Source: an uncultured Actinomycetes bacterium | GTDB taxonomy: Bacteria; Actinomycetota; Acidimicrobiia; Acidimicrobiales; RAAP-2 | Reading direction: 5' to 3' | Assembly (NCBI GenBank): GCA_903924205.1 | Contig: CAIYAP010000003.1 | Coordinates: 1 to 64,000 of the forward strand | Length of the DNA: 64,000 nucleotides | Part shown: positions 3,395 through 63,863 of the stretch, piece after piece | Layout of the letters: the number at the start of each line of letters is the position of its first letter | Position numbering within the stretch: position 1 is the first letter of the stretch | The notes under the pieces: generated by a model | The model's input: the letters and a program-made list of their open reading frames with translations, nothing else | What the model was told of the DNA's origin: nothing | The model's database searches: none | Translations under genes and position numbers: made by a program

Positions 3395-3415
3395 ATGTCT
3401 TGAGTCATAACAGCG

Positions 3416-4215: not shown

Positions 4216-4782
4216 ATGGTTCTTTCTGACCGCTCTATTCGTGAAGCCCTAGCCGCGGGCCGTATCGTCATTGACCCCCTCAACGAGGCGGACATTCAGC
4301 CGTCGTCAGTGGATCTTCGCATTGACAACGCCTTTCGGGTGTTTCGCAACCACACCCGCGGCATCATCGACGTGAAGGAAGACCAAACCGATCTCACCGA
4401 ACTGGTCGAAGTGGGCCCAGATGAGCCCTTTATCTTGCACCCGGGTGAATTCGCCCTCGGTGCCACCTTGGAGCGCGTCACCATTCCGAACGATTTGGTG
4501 GCTCGCCTGGAAGGAAAGAGCTCCCTCGGCCGTCTCGGTCTCCTTATTCATTCCACCGCGGGCTTCGTGGACGCCGGCTGGGATGGGTACTTGACCTTGG
4601 AGCTCTCCAATATCGCTAACTTGCCCATTACCTTGTATCCCGGTATGAAAATTGGCCAAATCAGTTTCTTCCAGATGACCACGGAAGCCGATAACCCCTA
4701 CGGTTCGGGCATCCTCGGCTCGAAGTATCGCGGCCAACGCGGCCCGACGCCGAGTCGCTATTTCGAAAACTTTCAACGGTAG
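4216..4782 (+). CDS. dcd: dCTP deaminase (possibly bifunctional dCTP deaminase/dUTPase)
   Basis: The enzyme converts dCTP to dUTP for thymidylate synthesis; some relatives also hydrolyse dUTP to dUMP. The 188-residue length is normal for the trimeric dUTPase-like fold. Visible motifs are [10 protein letters not shown] near residue 28, the [13 protein letters not shown] block (with the phosphate-binding Arg and Ser), [13 protein letters not shown] (with the catalytic Glu replaced by the family's later TLELSN Glu region) and the C-terminal [14 protein letters not shown]. Whether it is bifunctional, as in Mycobacterium, cannot be settled by eye. The next gene follows after 20 bp. Confidence 0.93.
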
Positions 4783-6913: not shown

Positions 6914-7089
6914 CTCCACGCCTCACGCCGGCGTCATCATCTCGTCATGTGGTGATGTGGCTAAATAATGGCGCATTGGGCGACGAGAATCTCGTGAACG
7001 ACTCATGAGGGCTCATCGTGACTTTCCCTAGGCGCCACATGGGAAAAAAGTGGGCCTCGGGGTAGTCCCTGGGGGCTAAGGTCTCGCCG

Positions 7090-55050: not shown

Positions 55051-55818
55051 CTACTTGGCGGCAGTGGCCGCGAGTGCGGATGCGAAGATCTGCCATGCCA
55101 GTAGCGACTTTGCCGCGAGAGACAGCACCAGGTAGGTCTTCTCGCCCACGAGGTAATTCGCGAAGCGTCCCACACGGCGATATTGCAGGTACTGCACGAG
55201 CGCGAAGCAGTTGAAGGCCACGAACAGCGAGACGTAGATGCCGTAGACGAAGCCGGGAGCGTGCTGGTGAGCACCGGGTCCAATGAGATAAACACCAATG
55301 GCGAGCCACGGCACCACGCCCGCCGCGCAGCCCAGCCAGAAGGGCAACAAGCTGCCACCGGGCTTTTCGTAGCGTTCTTGGAGAGCACCGAATCCGATCA
55401 TCGAGGCGTTCACACCAACGAGGGCTAACAGGGCGGCGATGTCGGAGATGCCCGTGAGTTGGGCAATGGCGACGATCATGAGCGATGACGAGAGCGAGTA
55501 TTCGAGCCAGCGATAGGGGTTGCGGCTTTCGCCGAGATGCGCTTCGTAACGCGAACGAAGGGGGCCAGCCACCAGGAAGTGAGCGACAGACGACAAGACG
55601 AAGAAGGCCCCGACGAGCCAGGCCAAACGCAGGCCTCCGAACAGATACATCTGGCGCGAGGTCGTTCCCGGAGGGCCGGCCATGTAGTTGGCATTGATGG
55701 GAAGAGCGAAGGTGTTGGCAAGCGCGATGATGGTGATCGCCGACATGAGGTGCAGCAACGCCGCCGCAAGATTGAAGTGGCGAAGTCGAGTGAATGAGGG
55801 TGACGAAGGCATATTCAT
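55051..55818 (-). CDS. heliorhodopsin
   Basis: A 255-residue protein with seven membrane helices of the heliorhodopsin family, not the type-1 pump family. The retinal Lys is K237 in VLSLAAKSLLAWQIF (helix 7). The Schiff-base counterion is E106 in RWLEYSLSSSLMI (helix 3); this EYSxSSS signature is diagnostic. His23 (helix 1) and His80 (helix 2) match the His pair of the reference protein 48C12. No DTD/NDQ pump motif is present, so it is more likely a light sensor or regulator. The topology is expected to be inverted (N-terminus inside). It is divergent from an epimerase gene 71 bp away. GAGGGG lies about 10 nt before the ATG. Confidence 0.92.
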   Translation of the reverse strand: MNMPSSPSFTRLRHFNLAAALLHLMSAITIIALANTFALPINANYMAGPPGTTSRQMYLFGGLRLAWLVGAFFVLSSVAHFLVAGPLRSRYEAHLGESRNPYRWLEYSLSSSLMIVAIAQLTGISDIAALLALVGVNASMIGFGALQERYEKPGGSLLPFWLGCAAGVVPWLAIGVYLIGPGAHQHAPGFVYGIYVSLFVAFNCFALVQYLQYRRVGRFANYLVGEKTYLVLSLAAKSLLAWQIFASALAATAAK

Positions 55819-55889
55819 GACACTATGACCCCTCGCTATGACGAGGGATCATGTCCCTAAGATGCGCTGATGACCCACAAGAGACTGCC

Positions 55890-58667: not shown

Positions 58668-58790
58668 GCCGTCACTCGGTATCTCGGCGTGACCCTCTCG
58701 CGGATTTTTGTGCGGCTACCATAGAAACATTACAAGGGCACCGTGGCCCTCTTACCCGCTCCGATAGTGGCGGAAACTGGAGTATCCCTC

Positions 58791-61700
58791 ATGAAGAAAA
58801 ACCTCGTCCGCGCCTGTGCCTCGATATTGATGACGGTCGGCGCCCTGACGGTCATCCCGACCGTTGCTAGCGCCGCACCGACCGCCCCCGTGTTGGCTAA
58901 GCCGACCTTCAACATCGCATCAGACACGATTATCCAAATCGTCGTGTCAATGACGACTCCGGGGACGTACACGGGTACGACTCCCACCTGGACGTGGAAC
59001 GCCACGCTGTACAGCAAGAGCACGGGTCTCGCGGTGGGAGGGTGCAACGCGTCTCTGTCCAGTGTGGGAAGTTTGGGCTACTGCACGGTCACAGGATTGA
59101 CGGCGGGATCAACCTATTACGCGACGGTCTCGGCGTACTACACGACCTACGTACCTTCGAAAGCCAATAGTGACATCGGAACCGCCACCTCCAATGATGT
59201 GCGTATTCCGGTGTTGCCCTCGGCACCCAATGTCACCTCAGTGACGCCGACGACGAATGGGCTGGGAGCGCGTTTTTGCGGTAATCCGAATAACGTTTTT
59301 TGCGGCAATGCCGGCTGGGCCAAGTCGGTGACCGTCACGTGGACAGCCCCCGCCGATGACGGCGGATTGCCCGTGACGGGCTACACCGTGACGGCGGTCC
59401 CGAAGGATACGTACGCCCCGTTTTGCACGGGAACTCAGTCGAGTGGGCCATGTTATGACCAAGGTCAATCAAGTTGCACTACCACGACTGCGTTGAGTTG
59501 CGATGTTCCCAACTTGACTCCGGGGGCGAACTACGACTTCACGGTGACCGCCAAGACAGCAAAGGGTTCCACTGTGTCACCGGTCTTCCCGTCGATGATC
59601 AAAGCTATTCCCAGCTTCGTCATCACCCCGTCAAACTCGTATTACAGCTTCGGACCTGGCGTCGTTAATGCCACTAACCCCATCGTCACGGCGGGTGACG
59701 GGTGGGCAACGCTGACCTGGAATGCCGGCAATTTTGTTGCCAACGGCTATCCGATTACTAGTTACATCGTGAGCGCGACGCAGCAGTGGGGCCGTTCATG
59801 GTCGGGGCCGGGAGCTTCATGTCGCGCCTGCTCGTACGGCCCGCTGGATTCAATTCCGTCCGAGGTCACCGTGGTCGGCACCTGCGTCACGATTAACTTC
59901 ACCTGCACTATTTCCGGTTTGCACAATGGTGAAAGCTACGGCTTCATCATCCAAGCAGTGAACGCCCTCGGCACGGGACCGATCATGATGGGCTTCCAAG
60001 CCAATCCCGTTGGCATTCCGCATGCAGTGTCGAACATCATCACCCAAGTCGGCAAGGGATCTTTTGGTCCGGCCCTTAGTGTGAATTGGACTCAGCCGGA
60101 CAATTGGCTTACCGCCCCGGGGATTGGCTACTACGTCAGCATTCAGCCGACGGGACGAAGCACCATTCCACAAAACTGGCAGGGATATACGTCGACGGAA
60201 CTCTGTTCGGTGCAGGCGAGCCCCCCGTCATCACAGCAGAGCACCAACATCAACAACATTCCGTGGCTAACTCCGTATACGCCCGTACCGACGAATTGCA
60301 GCATTCCCATCCAATCGGCACCCCGTTGGCCAGGTGACAATGCTTTCCTGACTCCGGGGACGTCGTACAACTTGGTCATTTCAGCATGCAACTGGAGGGG
60401 ATGCGCGCAGTTGGCCACCTCTCCCGTCGTGATTCCCGCACCCGTGAAGGTGGATGCTCCGGCGTCCGCTGCGACGACGCCAGCGAGCACGCAATTGACC
60501 GTGAACTGGACGCCTGCCGCAACGGCGGGTGCCTCTCAAACGGATAGTTACCTCGTGTTCGCCGTTCCCGCGGGTACAGCAGTGGGTGTGAGCGGACCTA
60601 CCTCACCACCATCGGGCTATTGCCTATACACGGTGACCACTCCCGAAGTGGACAGTTGTGTCATCACGGGGTTGACCAACGGCACGAAATATGACGTCTA
60701 TGTCGTCCCCAAGAGTTCCATGAACGGGAACGGAACGATGGTGAAGACTTCGGGTATTCCCGGTGGACCGCCCAGCGTTCCCCTCAACCCGAGCGCCACT
60801 GCCGGAACCGATTCGCTGATTATCACATGGTCGGCTCCGACGTCCAATGGCGGAATCCCCATCACTAGTTACACCGCAACCGCCTACGACGCGTTGGGCA
60901 ACGTGGCGGGAAGTTGTACGTATCTCGCGACGAACCCCGAATCGAACACCTGCACCATTACCGGGCTCATGGCCGGCCCCTACACCACGAAGATTGTGGC
61001 GACCAATGCTGCCGGCAATAGTCCGGAGGCCACGACGACTCCCGCCGCGCCGATCCACGCCACCGCACCGGGGGCTCCTCTCTCGGCGTCAGCCACCGGT
61101 GGTCAGTTACAGGCAACCATTAGTTGGACTCCGTCGATCGATGACGGCGGTTCGCCGGTGACGAGTTACATCGCGGAACTGCTGCAAAACGGTGTCGTTA
61201 TTGGCTCGTGTGTCTACACGGTCACGCTCCCCGAAACTGATACCTGCACGGTGAACGGTGTTCCGGAAGGTGATTATGACGTTCGCGTCACGGCGACAAA
61301 CGTGGTGGGTGCGTCCAGCTCGACGACCACGACGGTCACGGTGTTGCCGAATACCTCAGCGCCCAGCGCTCCCCTCAACCCATCGGCCACGTCGAATGAC
61401 GACGGGCAGACCACGGTGACGTGGTCGGCGCCGACCGATGACGGCGGTTCGCCGGTGACGAGTTACACCGCGACGGCCTACGACAGCACGGGGGCGGAGA
61501 TTGGTTCGTGCACCTACGTCGTGGGGGAGCCAGAAACCGACTCCTGCGTGATTACGGGACTCACGAATGCCCTGACCTATTCGGTGGAAGTCGTGGCGAC
61601 GAACTCGGCGGGCGAATCGGTGCCCTCGGCGAAGGCGTCGGGTCGCCCCGCACGAGTTCCTGATGCTCCCGACGCCGTTACGGTCACCGATGGCGAAGCG

Positions 61701-63863
61701 GGTCAAACCACGGTGATGTGGGATCGTCCACTATTCAATGGCGGTCAGACGATCACCTCGTATACCGCGACGGCCTACGACAGCAACGGCACTGCCGTGG
61801 CGTCGTGCACCTACGTGGTGACCAACCCCGACATCAACAGTTGTGTCATCACGGGATTGACCAATGGCCTTGACTACACCATTCGTGTCACGGCACAGAA
61901 TTCACTGGGGACCAGTCCTGCGGCGGAAGCACTTGACTTAGCCACACCGACGAGTGTGCCGGGTGCACCCACCTCGATTCACGCGACGGGGGGCATCCAG
62001 ACGGCCACCATTAGCTGGACTCCTCCTACCGATGATGGAGGAAGCGTGATCACCAGTTACACCGTGAACTTGATTGACAACTTTGGCAATGTGGTGGGCA
62101 CGTGCACCTACGTGGTGACGAGCCCCGAAGTTGACCAGTGCACGGTGGAGAACCTGCTGGGGAACGAGTATCGAGTTGAGGTCACGGCGAATAATGCCCT
62201 GGGGGAATCTGACTTTGGAACCACCACCGTCATCGTCGTGGAAGCGGCGACGGTTCCCTCGACTCCGCCGGATGTGTCAGTGACTCCGGGTGATAATCAG
62301 GTCGTGGTGACGTGGTCACCGTCCGTGGACGACGGTGGCGCTGCCATCACTTCGTACACGGCGACGGCGTATGACGCGAACGGCAACGTGGTGGGCACGT
62401 GCACCTATGTGGTGAGTGCGCCGGAGTCCGATACCTGCACTATTACGAATTTGCCGGCGAATCAAATTATTAGCGTCTCCGTCGTAGCCACCAATTCAGT
62501 GGGCGACAGCATCCCCGGCACGGCATCGAGCGCGGGAACGACCACCGGTGTGCCCAACGAACCGACTCTCGCTCCCACCCCCCTCGTGGTGTCGGAGTCG
62601 TCGGTGCGCTTCACGTGGACGCCCAGCGTGTACGCCTCGTCACAGTCGGTGACCAGCTACACCGCGACCGTCTTCGACGTGAACGACAACGTGGTGGGGC
62701 AGTGCACGTACACCGTCGCGATCCCCGAAACGGACACCTGCGTCGTCACGGGACTCACGCCAGGTCAGACCTACATTGGCTCAGTGATTGCGCACAGCGT
62801 GGCGGGCGATAGCCCCGAGTCGCCTGATTCTGTCGAAGTCATTCCTGCCGGTGCGCCTGATGCACCACAGTCACCAGCCGTGGATATTGCGAACGGGCGA
62901 GCCACCATCACGTGGGCGCCGCCGGTGTCCGATCACGGTGCCATCGTGACCTCCTACTCCGCCACGCTGTACGGTCCGACCGGCACCGTTCTCGGCACCT
63001 GCACCTACACGGTGAGCGTTCCCGAGAGCGACCGTTGTGTGGTGACGGGAGTCACGACGACGGGTGCGGTGACGGTGAAAATCACGGCGACGAATCGTAT
63101 CGGCACCTCGGTCCCGTCGGCAGCAGCCATCGCGACACGCGGAGCCTTCTCGTGCCCGATGCCGAAGTACGTGGTGACGGTGGACGGTAAGACCTTTGCG
63201 TCCAGCAACCTGACGAACTGGTCCTCGACGACCTCGGCGTCGTCGGTGATGGTCAATGCCATGGGTATCGCTCGAAATGGTTTTGCCTACTCGATGGGCG
63301 CCTTTGGCACATCGCTGGGTCACCTTGTTCGTTTGGACCGATTGGGCAACCGACTCGATCTGGGTGTTATTACCGGACTGCCACGCAACGTGGTCTACTT
63401 GGCCGGCGATATCGATCAATCCGTGGGAAATCTCGGAACTCTGTACGTCTCGGCGGGAGCGGGCGCGTCAACGGTGTACGCCGTGGATATCGCACGACGC
63501 ACCGCCACGGTCGTCGCGACGCCCGGCGGCTTCGTTGCGGGCCTTGACTTGGTAGTTCTCCATCACGGTGGCAAGACGTGGATTTTCTCCATCACCACCA
63601 CCACCATCAACGGCTTCTCGGTGGGAGCTGGTCAGCAATTCGTCACCCGCTCGTTAGTGGGTTACGGCGATGCGAACTTGATCGGTGGAGTCGATGGTAA
63701 CTCCTTGATGGCTTTCCGTCGCAGCGGCAAGATCACGCAGTTCCAGAACTTGTTCACCAATCGCATGCAAGCCATTGTCCTGACCGCCACCTTGCCGGGT
63801 GCGGCGTCGGGCATGAACGCGGGTATCAACGTGGACGGCGCGCTGTGCGTCACGGGGGCCTAG
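58791..63863 (+). CDS. giant secreted FN3-repeat surface protein (1690 aa)
   Basis: The ATG at 58791 gives a signal peptide (MKKNLVRACASILMTVGALT, cleavage near ASA-AP). Residues up to about 570 hold four or so FN3-like domains with irregular Cys. Nine more regular units of about 85-95 residues follow to about 1450. Each has a pair Cys-x-Tyr...Pro-Glu...Cys (for example SCTYVVTNPDINSCVITGL), probably a disulfide. The last ~240 residues form a beta-propeller-like domain. No LPXTG motif or membrane helix ends it, so it may be released or held non-covalently. GGAG precedes the ATG. Confidence 0.85.
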   Translation: MKKNLVRACASILMTVGALTVIPTVASAAPTAPVLAKPTFNIASDTIIQIVVSMTTPGTYTGTTPTWTWNATLYSKSTGLAVGGCNASLSSVGSLGYCTVTGLTAGSTYYATVSAYYTTYVPSKANSDIGTATSNDVRIPVLPSAPNVTSVTPTTNGLGARFCGNPNNVFCGNAGWAKSVTVTWTAPADDGGLPVTGYTVTAVPKDTYAPFCTGTQSSGPCYDQGQSSCTTTTALSCDVPNLTPGANYDFTVTAKTAKGSTVSPVFPSMIKAIPSFVITPSNSYYSFGPGVVNATNPIVTAGDGWATLTWNAGNFVANGYPITSYIVSATQQWGRSWSGPGASCRACSYGPLDSIPSEVTVVGTCVTINFTCTISGLHNGESYGFIIQAVNALGTGPIMMGFQANPVGIPHAVSNIITQVGKGSFGPALSVNWTQPDNWLTAPGIGYYVSIQPTGRSTIPQNWQGYTSTELCSVQASPPSSQQSTNINNIPWLTPYTPVPTNCSIPIQSAPRWPGDNAFLTPGTSYNLVISACNWRGCAQLATSPVVIPAPVKVDAPASAATTPASTQLTVNWTPAATAGASQTDSYLVFAVPAGTAVGVSGPTSPPSGYCLYTVTTPEVDSCVITGLTNGTKYDVYVVPKSSMNGNGTMVKTSGIPGGPPSVPLNPSATAGTDSLIITWSAPTSNGGIPITSYTATAYDALGNVAGSCTYLATNPESNTCTITGLMAGPYTTKIVATNAAGNSPEATTTPAAPIHATAPGAPLSASATGGQLQATISWTPSIDDGGSPVTSYIAELLQNGVVIGSCVYTVTLPETDTCTVNGVPEGDYDVRVTATNVVGASSSTTTTVTVLPNTSAPSAPLNPSATSNDDGQTTVTWSAPTDDGGSPVTSYTATAYDSTGAEIGSCTYVVGEPETDSCVITGLTNALTYSVEVVATNSAGESVPSAKASGRPARVPDAPDAVTVTDGEAGQTTVMWDRPLFNGGQTITSYTATAYDSNGTAVASCTYVVTNPDINSCVITGLTNGLDYTIRVTAQNSLGTSPAAEALDLATPTSVPGAPTSIHATGGIQTATISWTPPTDDGGSVITSYTVNLIDNFGNVVGTCTYVVTSPEVDQCTVENLLGNEYRVEVTANNALGESDFGTTTVIVVEAATVPSTPPDVSVTPGDNQVVVTWSPSVDDGGAAITSYTATAYDANGNVVGTCTYVVSAPESDTCTITNLPANQIISVSVVATNSVGDSIPGTASSAGTTTGVPNEPTLAPTPLVVSESSVRFTWTPSVYASSQSVTSYTATVFDVNDNVVGQCTYTVAIPETDTCVVTGLTPGQTYIGSVIAHSVAGDSPESPDSVEVIPAGAPDAPQSPAVDIANGRATITWAPPVSDHGAIVTSYSATLYGPTGTVLGTCTYTVSVPESDRCVVTGVTTTGAVTVKITATNRIGTSVPSAAAIATRGAFSCPMPKYVVTVDGKTFASSNLTNWSSTTSASSVMVNAMGIARNGFAYSMGAFGTSLGHLVRLDRLGNRLDLGVITGLPRNVVYLAGDIDQSVGNLGTLYVSAGAGASTVYAVDIARRTATVVATPGGFVAGLDLVVLHHGGKTWIFSITTTTINGFSVGAGQQFVTRSLVGYGDANLIGGVDGNSLMAFRRSGKITQFQNLFTNRMQAIVLTATLPGAASGMNAGINVDGALCVTGA

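Follow-up and report, generated by a model that had tools for sequence, protein, structure and literature searches.

The locus described here raises the question of which process a heliorhodopsin serves in its cell, and from where it obtains its retinal. Few heliorhodopsin signalling partners are known. Direct regulation of an enzyme has been reported for glutamine synthetase (PMC9529153) and for photolyase (PMC9769723), and that of an ABC transporter has been reported as well (PMC11109279). Among these systems, the actinobacterial AbHeR (glutamine synthetase, PMC9529153) and OcHeR (the OmrDE ABC transporter, PMC11109279) reportedly bind, and regulate by light, a protein encoded next to them. 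The gene studied here lies in a stretch of 64,000 nucleotides (the window), and it is divergent from a gene for an extended SDR. We favour, with a probability of about 0.4, the reading that this heliorhodopsin is a photosensor using external retinal and working with the cytoplasmic, Gre2/dihydroflavonol-4-reductase (DFR)-like reductase encoded divergently from it; such a reductase is a specific and testable candidate partner. The parts that are perhaps new to specialists are the co-occurrence of this SDR with heliorhodopsin, the missing carotenoid genes, and a DosR-like box found in related bacteria.

A canonical heliorhodopsin by sequence and predicted fold

The product of the gene (Table 1) matched the whole Pfam model PF18761 with 297.6 bits (cut-off 26.7, E 7.6e-89), and the NCBIfam equivalog model NF038020, 'heliorhodopsin HeR', with 287.4 bits for a cut-off of 100. 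When solved structures were searched with phmmer, the best match was heliorhodopsin 48C12 (6su3, 6su4, 6uh3; E 1.2e-77), homologous over the full length with 131 identical residues out of 247 (53%). In an alignment of 61 rows, the protein deviated at none of the columns where at least 90% of the relatives agree. An AlphaFold model made with 34 sequences (pLDDT 89.9) predicted helices at residues 7-33, 65-84, 101-121, 127-150, 158-179, 189-214 and 222-253, as well as two strands in the first loop (38-46 and 55-64), a feature of the heliorhodopsin fold. Foldseek superposed this model on 48C12 (6su4) with a TM-score of 0.91 and an rmsd of 1.9, type-1 rhodopsin folds being much weaker matches. The type-1 model itself (PF01036) reached 19.7 bits, below its cut-off of 24.6, and together with the fold this rules out a type-1 microbial rhodopsin. 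TaHeR, from a Thermoplasmatales archaeon (6is6, 7u55), has the same family and fold (TM-score 0.87-0.88 on the query), but is only about 40% identical and has an archaeal host. Judged by sequence and model, the protein is thus a canonical type-3 rhodopsin that adds an unexceptional member to an established family, and the sequence-only reading of this gene as a heliorhodopsin was borne out. An inverted topology, with the N-terminus in the cytoplasm, is assumed by carry-over from the family. Translation might alternatively start at Met3 (55812), which would give a length more usual among the relatives.

Alignment with 48C12 placed the retinal-site residues as listed in Table 1, exactly as had been proposed earlier, and S233 opposite S237. 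The confident AlphaFold model locates E106 within helix 3, and K237 belongs to helix 7, so that the refuting condition set beforehand for this assignment did not arise. Neither K237 nor H80 is substituted in any of the 61 aligned rows; H23 shows no substitution and two gaps, and the exceptions at E106 are one alanine and one gap. The hydrogen-bond network of 48C12 comprises N16, H23, Q26, S76, H80, Y92, R104, E107, S111, E149, E230, S237 and W246, and roles have been described for N16, S76, H80, R104, E107, E149, E230 and W246 (PMC9726877). According to the alignments the network is complete in the window protein except for Q26, which is a serine; N16, H23, S76, H80, Y91, R103, E106, E148, E226, S233 and W242 are among the residues kept. 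Besides this serine, the window protein differs from 48C12 in its gene neighbourhood. Retinal-site residues that are intact, and invariant across relatives, imply selection for chromophore binding.

Table 1. Features of the window and of the loci compared with it (window positions unless a locus is named)
Feature	Position	Strand	Basis or context
Heliorhodopsin, 255 aa	55051..55818	-	Pfam, NCBIfam, 48C12 alignment, AlphaFold model, Foldseek
K237 codon, retinal Schiff-base lysine (48C12 K241)	55108..55110	-	Alignment and predicted helix 222-253
E106 codon, Schiff-base counterion (48C12 E107)	55501..55503	-	Alignment and predicted helix 101-121
H80 codon (48C12 H80)	55579..55581	-	Alignment
H23 codon (48C12 H23)	55750..55752	-	Alignment
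DUF1330-like protein, 140 aa	54621..55043	+	Convergent neighbour; not shown to belong with heliorhodopsin
Imperfect palindrome of 28 bp, ATGACCCCTCG-N6-CGAGGGATCAT, operator-like	55825..55852	.	71-bp divergent intergenic region
Extended SDR, Gre2/dihydroflavonol-4-reductase-like, 339 aa	55890..56909	+	YTKSK motif, homology, co-occurrence; divergent from heliorhodopsin
GGGACRTTCGGCCC-like boxes	L024:5922, L026:5922, L028:4706, L029:5920, L018:189, L033:3609, L035:5934		Acidimicrobiaceae/Actinomycetes MAG loci
Heliorhodopsin and SDR-DUF2867 loci	L127:7893-10096, L137, L135, L139		Four congeners

A mobile gene with changing neighbours

The spacings reported earlier were confirmed on the window coordinates: the ATG of the SDR gene (55890) is 71 bp from the heliorhodopsin gene, and the convergent gene on the other side is separated from it by 7 bp. 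For the latter gene the position held but the family call did not, as its product scored 18.1 bits with DUF1330 (PF07045; E 0.0036), under the Pfam cut-off of 23. Among 60 other congeners that were searched, 4 had relatives of it, and G013, one of the 4, is devoid of heliorhodopsin. Convergent, and showing no association with heliorhodopsin in the genus, it was ruled out as a partner.

The locus was compared with 45 heliorhodopsin loci of other species, with flanks of at most 6 kb and heliorhodopsins 44-80% identical to that of the window. These relatives are uncultured actinobacterium and Acidimicrobiaceae MAGs, many of them evidently from freshwater. The gene arrangement of the window was found in none of the 45 loci, and none of its neighbours recurred beside heliorhodopsin there, except a distant amidase 2 kb off in one locus. 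Clusters obtained by an all-against-all comparison of ORFs were discarded, being mostly antisense shadows of the heliorhodopsin ORF. Inside the genus, heliorhodopsin has a patchy distribution (25 of 99 genomes). The closest one, in G106 (81% identity), is followed by a dCTP-deaminase-like gene; the ortholog of that gene occupies positions 4216-4782 of the window, some 50 kb from the window heliorhodopsin; the sister genome G113 has the dcd region as in the window, and heliorhodopsin is absent there. We conclude that the heliorhodopsin gene changes place, and is gained and lost, in this genus. The expectation that its neighbours would prove conserved and informative across genomes therefore failed for the most part, the DUF1330-like gene included. 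The SDR gene departs from this pattern: it has orthologs only in heliorhodopsin-bearing congeners and is linked to heliorhodopsin in two of them.

In the congener G071, the heliorhodopsin gene is split over two frames (L148:6023-6727; G071:C15:6059-6698), which may reflect decay into a pseudogene or a misassembly.

A divergently encoded reductase that accompanies heliorhodopsin

The SDR has an intact active-site motif (YxxxK). Its nearest solved relatives are dihydroflavonol-4-reductase and Gre2 (4qtz, E 1.5e-32), and about 275 of its residues align with the Gre2-type methylglyoxal reductase/DFR group (4qtz, 4pvc, 2c29), in which YxxxK is likewise kept. Since these are reductases, the label of epimerase given to it earlier was too loose. 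Unlike that group, the window SDR belongs to a bacterial subfamily that is found, within the genus, only in genomes bearing heliorhodopsin.

Orthologs were defined by an identity of at least 55%, all remaining matches being under 47%. They are present in 10 of the 99 congeners, and all 10 also have heliorhodopsin. The sister genome G113, whose RpoB is identical or near-identical, has neither heliorhodopsin nor an SDR ortholog; it is 94% complete, and the 626 kb examined matched the window only at 3.4-11.1 kb (86% nucleotide identity). All such absences are uncertain because the genomes are MAGs. In G022 and G107, a same-strand run of genes with short or overlapping gaps reads heliorhodopsin, VOC/glyoxalase, methyltransferase, SDR and DUF4260 (L125:1175-4611 and L149), an apparent heliorhodopsin operon including the SDR; the heliorhodopsin of G107 is truncated by the contig end. 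With only 48% identity between the heliorhodopsins of G022 and the window, this linkage involves another heliorhodopsin lineage and another gene arrangement. It was probably inherited once by G022 and G107, through common descent. In the other seven SDR-bearing genomes, SDR and heliorhodopsin are on separate contigs.

Counting genomes, which are not independent of each other, a Fisher test of the co-occurrence gave p 2e-7. The SDR-bearing genomes form five lineages in an rpoB tree, and counted by lineage (5 of 5) p is about 1e-3; in a strict test of independent pairs, all three supported pairs were concordant (p 0.25). The association of SDR and heliorhodopsin within the genus is suggestive, not proven. 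Concerning the tree itself, the RpoB proteins of G016, G067 and G013 (L240, L239 and L241) are 60-63% identical to the reference, most others checked being at 85-95%. They may stem from a divergent rpoB, from a second copy of the gene or from wrongly binned contigs, and the placement of these genomes is unsure because of a very long branch.

A second SDR family, unrelated to the divergent one, is found near heliorhodopsin in relatives. A protein of about 480 aa, an SDR with a C-terminal DUF2867, is encoded on the same strand, -1 to +33 bp after heliorhodopsin, in G016, G067, G087 and G112 (Table 1). Five loci that are less closely related (L016, L017, L023, L030, L032) also carry its gene, there upstream of heliorhodopsin and in opposite orientation. 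Some of these five also contain, in our scan, a B12-binding HTH regulator and an FAD amine-oxidoreductase-like protein, and some contain genes that read as DUF1365-, CFA-synthase- or photolyase-like. This context is known in kind, since 'SDR family' is already one of ten recurrent heliorhodopsin operon partners, 'MerR' and 'photolyase' being listed too (PMC11109279). The presence of an SDR directly downstream of heliorhodopsin in relatives also counts in favour of the pairing proposed below. The window genome has a homolog, 56% identical and unlinked to heliorhodopsin (C5:14280-15716).

By analogy with the family, all-trans-retinal would form a Schiff base with K237, light would shift the proton toward E106 and H80 with no pumping, and a slow change of conformation at the cytoplasmic face would be relayed to a soluble partner. 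The co-occurrence and the linkage suggest that this partner, or the process controlled, may be the Gre2/DFR-like and probably NADPH-dependent reductase, in which case light would tune carbonyl reduction. The pairing is supported by linkage in the window genome (divergent) and in G022 and G107 (same strand). The locus then resembles those of AbHeR and OcHeR, an actinobacterial heliorhodopsin beside a candidate partner gene, but AbHeR and OcHeR share an operon with their partners, whereas the window SDR is divergent and a putative partner. It is a point against the pairing that divergent genes do not form one transcript. An SDR neighbour is also unsurprising in itself, because SDR genes are abundant.

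The neighbours of a functional photosensor might alternatively be accidental, its partner being encoded elsewhere, for example by the unlinked SDR-DUF2867 gene, or being the membrane, and the SDR association reflecting shared lineages. We hold this to be only slightly less likely: heliorhodopsin gene order differs among nearly all species examined, the G106 gene being an example at 81% identity, but a presence of heliorhodopsin in 10 of 10 SDR-ortholog genomes, for 25 of 99 overall, and an SDR linkage in two arrangements with divergent heliorhodopsins, speak for more than chance proximity. It is rather unlikely, in our estimate, that heliorhodopsin and a dedicated reductase are gained and lost together as a functional pair, in which the reductase would either be under light control or act on scavenged retinoids for the opsin.

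Retinal supply

The window genome, that of a small freshwater actinobacterium (1.66 Mb in 7 contigs, 97.5% complete), was searched as a whole, alongside relatives. No type-1 rhodopsin, no Brp/Blh-type carotene dioxygenase (BCD), no RPE65-type carotenoid oxygenase and no phytoene synthase (SQS_PSY) was found in it, so that the absence of another rhodopsin or a retinal-synthesis gene, first claimed for the 64 kb, holds genome-wide, carotenoid oxygenases elsewhere included. The searches worked on controls: the BCD model found a match in a genome of the same order, the RPE65 search gave matches for 11 of the 16 other genera, and SQS_PSY was matched in 3 genomes of the same genus without heliorhodopsin and in 7 control genomes. 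With no such genes detectable, no known route would lead to retinal or to its carotenoid precursor. The simplest reading is uptake, and retinal is probably acquired from outside the cell; an unrecognised synthesis route is a possible alternative, for which Aurantimicrobium minutum provides a precedent (PMC7734400). The window genome is a naturally occurring example of a heliorhodopsin host that lacks known genes for retinal or carotenoids.

The missing genes bear on two other explanations. In the first, the SDR would serve the chromophore, interconverting retinal and scavenged retinol or another apocarotenoid, and so supplying or removing retinal. Its place among ketone and aldehyde reductases, and its restriction within the genus to heliorhodopsin-bearing genomes, would fit. 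We nevertheless regard this as improbable, given that 15 of the 25 heliorhodopsin-bearing congeners have no SDR ortholog, that the substrates of Gre2/DFR enzymes are broad or unrelated, and that NADPH favours the conversion of retinal to retinol, the opposite of supply. In the second, which is very improbable, the opsin would be mostly chromophore-free in nature, with no light function or with a light-independent scaffold role. A genome this complete (97%) without a known retinal route speaks for it, but the retinal-site residues are all intact and invariant among relatives, and other plankton may provide retinal. A. minutum, moreover, lacks known genes for retinal synthesis and yet contains retinal and a functional rhodopsin (PMC7734400).

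That the protein is a light-driven ion transporter like the viral heliorhodopsin V2HeR3, a family member reported to transport protons (PMC9448325), is hardly to be expected, as it is 53% identical to the 48C12 type, in which the proton of the Schiff base reportedly does not reach the bulk surface (PMC9726877), and deviates from its relatives at no column conserved to at least 90%.

Candidate regulatory sites

The intergenic region between heliorhodopsin and SDR contains an operator-like palindrome (Table 1), unique within the window, whose score was equalled in 13 of 1000 shuffles of the region. It was rejected as a conserved operator, being absent upstream of the heliorhodopsins of relatives. 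In the related loci listed in Table 1, a GGGACRTTCGGCCC-like palindromic box precedes heliorhodopsin by about 50 nt. Six distinct loci carry the exact 14-mer GGACNTTCGGCCCT, which among all compared loci is confined to the region upstream of heliorhodopsin; L028 has a one-base variant. The box resembles, in sequence, the DevR/OsdR consensus AGGGCCGATCGGCCCT (PMC5069765), which makes it a candidate DosR/OsdR-like site and points to possible oxygen or redox control of the heliorhodopsin gene in these bacteria. No literature linking heliorhodopsin with DosR was found in the papers examined. In the window, the single match to such a box, at 7072 and with one mismatch, is no better than chance. In the congener G098 (L144) a similar sequence, GGGACCTTCGACCC, precedes heliorhodopsin by 90 nt.

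Two further regions of the window were inspected by eye. Positions 367-2975 contain two IS3-type transposase-like ORFs, and synteny with G113 starts just after them, at 3415. At the other end, positions 58743-63863 encode a secreted protein of 1706 aa with what look like fibronectin-type-III-like repeats, which ends near the window edge.
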